From contig NZ_AOLJ01000015.1 in NCBI RefSeq assembly GCF_000336775.1, positions 1 through 64,000 on the forward strand: a DNA stretch of 64,000 nucleotides. The letters are read 5' to 3'. Made by a program: the position numbers and the translations under genes. The stretch comes from Haloferax gibbonsii ATCC 33959. Lineage in GTDB: Archaea; Halobacteriota; Halobacteria; Halobacteriales; Haloferacaceae. The notes below the pieces were generated by a model. That model saw only the letters and a program-made list of their open reading frames with translations, made no database searches and had not been told where the DNA came from. This document shows, piece after piece, positions 35,124-42,012 of the stretch (position 1 is the first letter of the stretch; each line of letters begins with the position of its first letter).

Positions 35124-35194
35124 GGGACCGTGGGGTAGTGGTATCCTCTGCCGATGGGGTCGGTAGGACCTGAGTTCGACTCTCAGCGGTCCCA
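35124..35194 (+). tRNA. tRNA-Pro (GGG)
   Basis: A 71-nt cloverleaf: acceptor GGGACCG (35124-35130) pairs CGGTCCC (35187-35193), discriminator A35194. The anticodon stem TGCCG/CGGTA encloses loop A-T-GGG-G-T, so the anticodon is GGG (Pro). The T arm includes GTTCGAC. No intron; CCA is not encoded. A remnant copy of its ends lies 127 nt downstream. Confidence 0.95.
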
Positions 35195-35224
35195 TACTTT
35201 TGCCGACGCAACACGACGAGCCGT

Positions 35225-35515
35225 GAGTCCGTCAGGACTCCGGCGAGACCCGCCGTCGGGTCACGTATGCACGGAACTGAGCGTCGACCCCGGAAGTCGC
35301 AGCCAGCGAGCGAAGCGAGCGGGACCGTCTTCCGACGTTCGACTCTCAGCGGCCCCGTACCACCGTTTTACGTCGTCGACTGTCGCTCTGCGAGCGACAG
35401 TCTCCTCACAAAAAGCTGTCCTCGTGAGCGACAGCGAACGAATGCTCGTGAGACGCCTCGCGTCTCACGGTGGACTAAAAACTCCCCGCGAGGGCTCGCT
35501 CTGCTCGCCTCGCGG
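35225..35515. repeat. Cluster of alternating inverted repeats
   Basis: Two hairpin classes mix here. Short-loop stems (loops GTCA, CCGT, TGC, CTC) alternate with stems whose loops resemble GAGCGAAGCGA. Examples of the latter are GAGCGACAGCGA at 35426-35437, an imperfect stem around GAGCGAAGCGA near 35308-35318, and the reverse-strand form GCTCGCTCTGCTCG in the loop of 35486-35515. The 11-bp stem GACTGTCGCTC/GAGCGACAGTC (35378-35402) is perfect. Confidence 0.65.
35321..35361 (+). pseudogene. Remnant of tRNA-Pro
   Basis: GGGACCGT at 35321-35328 matches the 5' acceptor end of the tRNA-Pro at 35124. Bases 35337-35359 match its T arm and 3' acceptor (35174-35196) at 21 of 23 positions. The D arm and anticodon arm are gone, so this is a deleted tRNA copy. 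It may be a scar left by an integrative element that used the tRNA 3' end, or a plain duplication followed by deletion. Confidence 0.65.
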
Positions 35516-40881: not shown

Positions 40882-42012
40882 ATGAGCGACACGCGACGCG
40901 CCCTCCTCGACGCACTCGCCGAGGGTCCCGTCTCCGGGCCCGACCTCGCCGACCGACTGGGCGTCTCCCGCGCCGCCGTCTGGAAGCACGTCGAGTCACT
41001 CCGCGACGAGGGGTTCGGCGTCGAGAGCGCCGGCGACGGCTACGTCGTCACCGACGTGCCGGAGTACGGCGGCCCGGCAATCGAGTACGGCCTCGAAGTC
41101 GACTACGACATCGAGTTCCACGAGACGCTCGACTCCTCGAACGTCCGCGCCCGCGAACTCGCCGCCGAGGGCGCGAGCGACGTGGTCGTCGTCGCCCGCG
41201 AGCAGACCGCCAGCCGGGGGAGAAAGAACCGCGAGTGGTCCGCGCCCGACGGCGGCGTCTGGATGAGCCTGCTCGTGCGCCCCGACGAACCGCCGGCGTA
41301 CGCCCCGCTGTACACGCTGGCGATGGCCGTCGCCGTCTGCGACGCGGCGCGCGAGGCCGGGGTGGACGCGAGCATCAAGTGGCCGAACGACGTTATCGTG
41401 AGCGAAGCGAACGATAACCCGTCGGGCGCGTCAGCGTCCGACGGTGTCTCCGCGAGCGAAGCGAGCGGAGGTTCACCGGCTCACGCCGGTGGCGTTGCCA
41501 CGAGCGAAGCGAGTGGCAGTTCGTCTGCGAATGCAGACGGCATTTCCGCGAGCGAAGCGAGCGGAGGTTCGAAGGACTCCGACACGCCTACTGACCGCGG
41601 CTACCGAAAGCTCTGCGGCATCCTCACCGAGATGGAAGGCGAGGCCGACCGCGTCTCGTGGCTCGTCATCGGCCCCGGAATCAACGTCAACCTCGACCCC
41701 GCGGACCTCCCCGAGGGCGCGACGAGCGTCGCCGCGGAAGCGGGCCCCGTCGAACGCCGCGTGTTCGTCCAGCGGGTGCTCGAACGCTTCGACGAACTGC
41801 GCGGCGACATCGACGCCGTCCTCCCGGCGTGGCGCGAGCGGGCGGACACGCTCGGCAGGCGGGTCCGCGTCCACACCGCGAGCGGCGTCATCGAGGGGGA
41901 GGCGGTCGATATCGAACACCCCGGCACGCTCGTCGTTCGAACCGACGAGGGCGAAAAACGAGTCCACGCCGGCGACTGCGAACACCTGCGCCCGGCCGAC
42001 GGCGGGCGCTGA
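40882..42012 (+). CDS. birA: Biotin-[acetyl-CoA-carboxylase] ligase/repressor BirA with an inserted hairpin-encoded segment
   Basis: A 376-aa bifunctional protein. Residues 1-60 are a winged helix (LLDALAEGPVSGPDLADRLG, VSRAAVWKHVESLRDEGFGV). The biotin-ligase domain has EQTASRGRKNREWSAPDGG (the RG-biotin loop) and KWPNDV, followed by KLCGILTEMEGEADRVSWLV and a C-terminal SH3-like domain (RRVRVHTASGVIEGEAVDIE). Between VIV (~173) and KLCGIL (~239) lies a ~65-residue Ser/Ala/Gly-rich insertion with four SEA(S/N) units, encoded by alternating hairpins (41392-41565). This is normally a short loop, so activity may persist. It is directly downstream of its substrate gene pccA. Confidence 0.93.
   Translation: MSDTRRALLDALAEGPVSGPDLADRLGVSRAAVWKHVESLRDEGFGVESAGDGYVVTDVPEYGGPAIEYGLEVDYDIEFHETLDSSNVRARELAAEGASDVVVVAREQTASRGRKNREWSAPDGGVWMSLLVRPDEPPAYAPLYTLAMAVAVCDAAREAGVDASIKWPNDVIVSEANDNPSGASASDGVSASEASGGSPAHAGGVATSEASGSSSANADGISASEASGGSKDSDTPTDRGYRKLCGILTEMEGEADRVSWLVIGPGINVNLDPADLPEGATSVAAEAGPVERRVFVQRVLERFDELRGDIDAVLPAWRERADTLGRRVRVHTASGVIEGEAVDIEHPGTLVVRTDEGEKRVHAGDCEHLRPADGGR
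41392..41565. repeat. In-frame array of hairpins with a constant GAGCGAAGCGA loop
   Basis: Seven adjacent inverted repeats lie inside birA. Four have different perfect stems but the same 11-nt loop GAGCGAAGCGA: GTTATCGT/ACGATAAC (loop 41400-41410), CTCCGC/GCGGAG (41454-41464), TGCCAC/GTGGCA (41502-41512) and TCCGC/GCGGA (41550-41560). Between them are CCGTCGG/CCGACGG (12-nt loop), CACCGGC/GCCGGTG (loop TCAC) and CGTCTGC/GCAGACG (loop GAAT). Loop-to-loop spacing is 54, 48 and 48 nt, so the frame is kept. Confidence 0.85.

Follow-up and report, generated by a model that had tools for sequence, protein, structure and literature searches.

The Hairpin Array in birA

What is an array of hairpins doing inside the coding sequence of a biotin ligase, and where could it have come from? 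The question is raised by birA of Haloferax gibbonsii ATCC 33959, which lies in the window analyzed here, a stretch of 64,000 nucleotides (positions 1 to 64,000 of contig NZ_AOLJ01000015.1). The initial annotation had described seven hairpins standing side by side within the gene, and all seven are present between 41392 and 41568, each of them folding by itself (Table 1). As it had also claimed, four of the hairpins have exactly the same loop, GAGCGAAGCGA, starting at 41400, 41454, 41502 and 41550 (spacings of 54, 48 and 48 nt), on differing stems that are perfect over 8, 6, 6 and 5 Watson–Crick base pairs; the three short-loop hairpins alternate with these four. The insert is in frame between KWPNDV and KLCGIL and encodes SEAS/SEAN repeats. 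In the AlphaFold2 model of BirA, residues 176–238 have a pLDDT below 50 and form a loop between strands 170–174 and 241–254.

Table 1. Positions in the window of birA, its hairpin units and the intergenic module.
Feature	Position	Strand	Remarks
birA host gene, biotin-[acetyl-CoA-carboxylase] ligase with HTH domain, 376 aa	40882..42012	+	ORF; Pfam BPL_LplA_LipB, HTH_11, BPL_C
Variable in-frame insert between KWPNDV and KLCGIL, 213 nt here	41395..41607	+	Genus range 57–267 nt; predicted disordered
Unit 1, hairpin A: GTTATCGT-GAGCGAAGCGA-ACGATAAC	41392..41418	+	R3 match 41392–41446, E 2.3e-9 in 464 kb
Unit 1, hairpin B: CCGTCGGGCGC-gtca-GCGTCCGACGG	41419..41444	+	Folds alone
Unit 2, hairpin A: GTCTCCGC-GAGCGAAGCGA-GCGGAGGT	41446..41472	+	R1 42.6 bits
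Unit 2, hairpin B: CACCGGC-tcac-GCCGGTG	41474..41491	+	Folds alone
Unit 3, hairpin A: GTTGCCAC-GAGCGAAGCGA-GTGGCAGT	41494..41520	+	R3 match
Unit 3, hairpin B: CGTCTGC-gaat-GCAGACG	41521..41540	+	Folds alone; GTCTGC/GCAGAC core
Unit 4, hairpin A: ATTTCCGC-GAGCGAAGCGA-GCGGAGGT; no B hairpin after it	41542..41568	+	R3 match
Intergenic A-B module: GTCCTCGTGAGCGAcAGCGAACGAATGC-TC-GTGAGACGcctcGCGTCTCAC-GGTG	35418..35472	+	R3 47.9 bits, E 6.5e-8

A 201-nt stretch of birA folds better than all 200 of its dinucleotide shuffles, with z-scores of −6.7 as RNA and −4.0 as DNA, and a z-score of −6.7 is also obtained against permutations of the insert's own synonymous codons. When the codons are resampled from the GC-richer usage of the host, however, the z-score is only −1.8; folding energy alone is thus not decisive, and the case rests on comparison. 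The bare 11-mer GAGCGAAGCGA is found 21 times in the genome against 18 times for its reversal, which is no enrichment, so that the finding would look refuted if judged by such counts alone; enclosed in a perfect stem, unlike on its own, the 11-mer is enriched. The exact capped hairpin is confined to birA in a 464-kb sample of its own genome, which indicates a low copy number.

The decisive evidence comes from comparisons, among them that of birA across the genomes of 15 Haloferax species. The insert is in frame in every genome and ranges from 57 to 267 nt, with the same kinds of hairpins, different stems and different numbers of units; in two species the array is reduced to a few remnants within 57–75 nt. 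The same site is filled in related genera, where the stems differ as well, as in VIVSEAND (ATC/GAT) versus VLVSEANE (CTC/GAG). Among the birA copies of the capped hairpin (hairpin A below), 95% of the alignment cells are paired and 9 of 10 base pairs show two-sided change; the cells with such change number 69, compared to 18 ± 6.5 in shuffles and 4–21 when the partners are slid. The idea that the array reflects selection on structure, or the copying of a structured unit, is therefore strongly supported.

The loop site itself may hold other material. In one species (G050, whose locus is also that of the Halopenitus persicus record L167), an acidic (GDRDDADE)n-like repeat without capped hairpins fills the BirA loop, from which the site seems to be generally permissive.

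The Capped Hairpin and the Two-Hairpin Module

The element shared by the four hairpins had been taken for a constant 11-nt loop. It is indeed common to all four, but it is not a plain loop: GAGCGAAGCGA parses as GA-GC-GAA-GC-GA, in which two opposed tandem G·A steps enclose two base pairs and a GNA triloop. The mirror palindrome noted earlier is a by-product of this GA-xy-GNA-y'x'-GA arrangement. Among relatives, the inner pairs of the cap covary (GC/GC, AC/GT, GT/AC and GG/CC) and the triloop is mainly GNA; the G·A pairs presumably adopt the sheared geometry. The mini-hairpin d(GCGAAGC), with its GNA loop, is familiar from DNA biophysics and aptamer work, and the same GCGAAGC is contained in the cap. 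The synthetic motif, however, comes without the flanking tandem G·A and the free stem of the natural hairpin, whose cap also varies as GNA with covarying closing pairs. A kink-turn of the kind bound by L7Ae was ruled out, since the cap is a symmetric GA/GA without a three-nucleotide bulge. A covariance-model search of 13 loci against Rfam 15 matched only tRNAs at E ≤ 0.1.

The capped hairpin, which we call hairpin A, follows the pattern GT-stem-GAxyGNAy'x'GA-stem'-GC and is one half of a larger repeat. Two hairpins with a fixed polarity make up the repeat unit, which spans about 54 nt or 18 codons: hairpin A comes first, a second hairpin B after it, and commonly GGTG at the end; many copies read GC-TC-[B]-GGTG, in other families too. 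Outside birA, 42 of 72 copies have a B hairpin of 6 bp or more immediately 3' of hairpin A; 1.2 were expected, and 7 were found on the 5' side. In an alignment of A and B made without the birA sequences, 16 of 18 pairs covary, with 69 cells of two-sided change versus 19 when shuffled.

A Dispersed Family of the Haloarchaea

Because the stems vary freely with compensation, members of the family are found by covariance model. In the scan of Haloferax genomes proposed in the initial annotation, model R1, trained on hairpin A of birA, found 11–24 copies in each of the 15 genomes (E ≤ 1), with its best matches outside birA, while the control model R2, in which the loop was scrambled by turning GA to AG and reversing the triloop, gave 0–3 matches per genome and none under E 0.018. 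A third model, R3, was built from the A+B alignment without birA sequences (one of its seeds is the pheT copy described below). In a back-test on 464 kb of the genome that carries this birA, its top match was unit 1 of the gene. Since the seeds had been located by the birA-trained R1, the independence of this back-test extends to hairpin B and its linkage and does not include hairpin A. In a sample of 120 genomes of the phylum, 18 of the 19 positive genomes belong to the window's own order (the haloarchaea), and the remaining one is marginal. Copy numbers are low outside birA and the flanks of tRNA genes.

The majority of the copies are noncoding and intergenic. Where they are linked to tRNA genes, 49 of 50 lie on the 3' side, at distances of 42–283 nt (one at 423), and they accompany many different tRNAs; many of these positions are orthologous between species, so the counts overstate the number of independent events. 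Pieces of tRNA 3' ends are often repeated beside the hairpins, and this is also seen in the window, whose intergenic module is 224 nt 3' of a tRNA-Pro gene (35124–35194). The 3' end of this tRNA (35174–35197) is repeated 163 nt downstream at 35337–35360 with 92% identity over 24 nt; an A-type cap, GCGAGCGAAGCGAGC (35306–35320), lies between the two repeats, and the A-B module follows behind them. The arrangement resembles a scar left by integration at a tRNA.

Tandem arrays are not limited to coding DNA. A haloarchaeon of another family has seven tandem hairpin units, mostly identical, with a period of 52 in a noncoding region (L362, G181:C2:230779-231117) that seems to lie between gene ends. 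There is also a more uniform intergenic subfamily, AAAAAnCT-GTCTTCGTGAGCGnnAGCGAACGAAGGC-TC-GTGAGACGCnnnGCGTCTCAC-GGTGGAnnAAAAA, often next to a hairpin flanked by T and A runs (near position 1501 of L255, L256, L261, L264, L265, L270, L271, L272, L275, L276 and L287); these hairpins are possibly two-way terminators. In several Haloferax species (L063, L064, L065, L070, L075), an rdgB/HAM1-like gene has hairpins of this style in the sense orientation immediately behind its stop codon, and some of these have a longer cap.

One rival explanation takes the repeat for an RNA regulatory element: the hairpins would act in the transcript, as partial terminators, pause sites, processing signals or binding sites for a protein, and would be kept in birA for this role. 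In a reporter assay, 59% of transcripts were terminated at a hairpin from an H. volcanii coding region (PMC7237163). The non-Watson–Crick pairs in the stems are mostly G·U rather than A·C, 24 versus 3 in birA and 12 versus 1 elsewhere (one fixed U·G pair omitted; shuffled expectation 58:35 and 46:33, respectively), and a U·G wobble beside the outer G-C is kept in noncoding copies as well. The G·U excess suggests pairing in one particular strand, be it RNA or one of the DNA strands, although the seed sets admitted G·U and inflated it; a less biased count, with stem-less stretches removed, is about 17:4. Against an RNA role, the tRNA-downstream copies are found in either orientation (26 sense and 23 antisense), the coding copies lie in unrelated genes and are missing from most orthologues, and two Haloferax species have only the reduced birA array. 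We consider the RNA element an unlikely explanation of the array.

In-Frame Copies in Other Genes

For four genes, the filled sites could be compared with empty orthologous ones. An XPD-like helicase of one species carries the copy EFGD-VPASGASGSMRGGSPSRT-GFET and exceeds its 12 empty orthologues by exactly 54 nt. An aldo-keto reductase of two species reads RDG-VSASEASRRQGAIEASDR-ERTM, again a gain of 54 nt, and the site is empty in a third. A GHL5 glycoside hydrolase has a 57-nt insertion in one species at a site that is empty elsewhere, and pheT of two species has 18 residues in place of one, a net gain of 51 nt over the empty site. Further copies, VPASEANGGS... and VPASDASGGS..., come from other haloarchaea, where they lie in a urocanase and in an AAA helicase.

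In all seven genes, birA included, the coding copies use one common frame and one orientation (VxASEAS), which argues that the peptide is filtered too; the view that selection was not on protein was in this respect too strong. Could the protein then be the whole story, an acidic and flexible Ser/Ala linker being what selection favors in BirA and the hairpins a by-effect of repeated codons? The common frame and the SEAS/SEAN repeats would fit, as would the comparably stable folds that resampling from host codon usage often yields. Most copies, however, encode no protein; the covariation alters amino acids, as in the I..D, I..N and L..E pairs; and permuting the codons of the insert itself destroys the fold. 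We attach next to no credence to selection on the protein as the sole cause.

Comparison with Known Repeats

The best reading of the module is as an analogue of the protein-coding palindromic repeats known as RPE in Rickettsia and WPE in Wolbachia (PMC2996958, PMC2229807, PMC10969869), and of the palindromic elements of Methanocaldococcus jannaschii (Suyama 2005, as cited in the same three papers), only held together by structure. Like these, it is a short and stable hairpin repeat that is both intergenic and in frame within unrelated conserved genes, mostly in unstructured segments of the protein, and its insertion sites are polymorphic between species, filled in some orthologues and empty in others. 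The differences are equally clear. RPE-like repeats form sequence families of 105–150 bp, whereas the haloarchaeal module is about 54 nt, has two hairpins in a fixed order, and shares only the cap, the ends and the layout among its copies. Freely varying, compensated stems and tandem amplification inside one gene are found only in the haloarchaeal module, which also has a strong association with tRNA 3' flanks. With units of this size and with differing stems, it works like an RPE and is not to be filed as one.

The initial annotation had also compared the array to BIMEs. The layout supports the likeness: REP/BIME repeats and the module are small palindromes in pairs or clusters that occur for the most part between genes and to their 3' side, with tandem arrays, and a further point in common is the wobble conserved close to the base of hairpin A. 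Membership, here with mobilization by a Y1 (RAYT/IS200-like) transposase, is not supported. REP sequences comprise GTAG and CGTC superfamilies, the latter also without a known transposase (PMC3733652). Judged on the GTAG type, the haloarchaeal module has neither the tag at its ends (by inspection), nor a conserved stem sequence, nor a dependence on Y1, and it differs further in its low copy number and in-frame copies. A search of the 15 carrier genomes for a mobilizing Y1 transposase (Y1_Tnp, PF01797) found none in four of them (G002, G005, G006 and G007), which have 12–23 repeat matches each, and one of the four, G005, has a coding insertion of its own. RAYT-type mobilization is thus not required now, and we find it highly improbable that these are Y1-mobilized REP/BIME repeats.

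Small transposase-free palindromic repeats are known from haloarchaea. The PATEs of Haloquadratum are derivatives of IS605-type ends and fall into sequence families found by BLASTN, and its SMRs measure about 110 bp and have terminal inverted repeats. The account of the two (PMC3119063) mentions neither an A-B double hairpin nor in-frame copies within conserved genes, which sets them apart from the module as far as the descriptions go. Neither the motif string nor a description of the family was found in the openly searchable literature, and an earlier description in a subscription journal is possible. The family is seemingly undescribed so far, and the proposal of an undescribed structured or mobile mini-element gains support from this, from the dispersal and from the filled and empty sites, the movement being the part that we infer.

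How the Array May Have Arisen

We consider it probable that the birA array is made up of four tandem copies of a dispersed haloarchaeal two-hairpin module that has been gained, multiplied and lost in a permissive loop. The copies would move either when a transient hairpin is copied under the guidance of its structure or with the aid of factors acting in trans; a search for target-site duplications turned up no clean one. In this scheme, a small non-autonomous repeat spreads for the most part between genes, above all right behind the 3' ends of tRNA genes, and now and then a copy may enter a protein gene. The survivors would be those in the sense orientation and in one frame, within flexible surface loops, where that frame gives a flexible, acidic, Ser/Ala-rich peptide, VxASEASGxS.... 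The beta-turn after KWPND of BirA would have become a hot spot, in which units were gained, tandemly multiplied and lost as the Haloferacaceae diverged. The stems may change and the fold still be kept through compensatory change, or because one arm serves as the template by which the other is corrected. The 5' arm of unit 1 coincides with V-I/L-V codons that insert-free relatives have too, so the simple insertion of a whole unit does not explain unit 1; this is a hint that one arm can be copied from the local sequence by hairpin-templated synthesis. The array in birA probably has no gene-specific function of its own.

One may ask whether an element is needed at all. Template switching during replication can perfect imperfect inverted repeats, and a purely mutational palindromization, without element or selection, would account for stems that are all different yet near perfect, and for the 3' arm of unit 1, which is complementary to codons of insert-free relatives. 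Palindromization, however, leaves unexplained the GA..GA/GNA cap, the A-B-GGTG order, the size of about 54 nt and the insertions of exactly 54 nt, and correction running through the cap should have erased the G·A mismatches. As the only process at work it appears improbable to us.

There is a bolder version of the mobile module, which we put forward tentatively as a possibility, in which secondary structure is the heritable identity of the family: the machinery would read the capped pair of hairpins and tolerate or rewrite the stems. If this is true, each new copy could take local sequence into its arms.

Protein-coding palindromic repeats have so far been reported from Rickettsia, Wolbachia and one methanogen. 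The module would add to these a family, spread over haloarchaea, that is defined by fold rather than by sequence, together with a case of stepwise amplification within one enzyme gene across a whole genus. The covariance model gives annotators a handle on repeats that BLAST cannot group. The series of birA inserts from 57 to 267 nt is natural material for studying how repeats enter proteins, and in Haloferax volcanii there is a tractable relative in which ongoing movement, and the copying of structure alone, may be tested.
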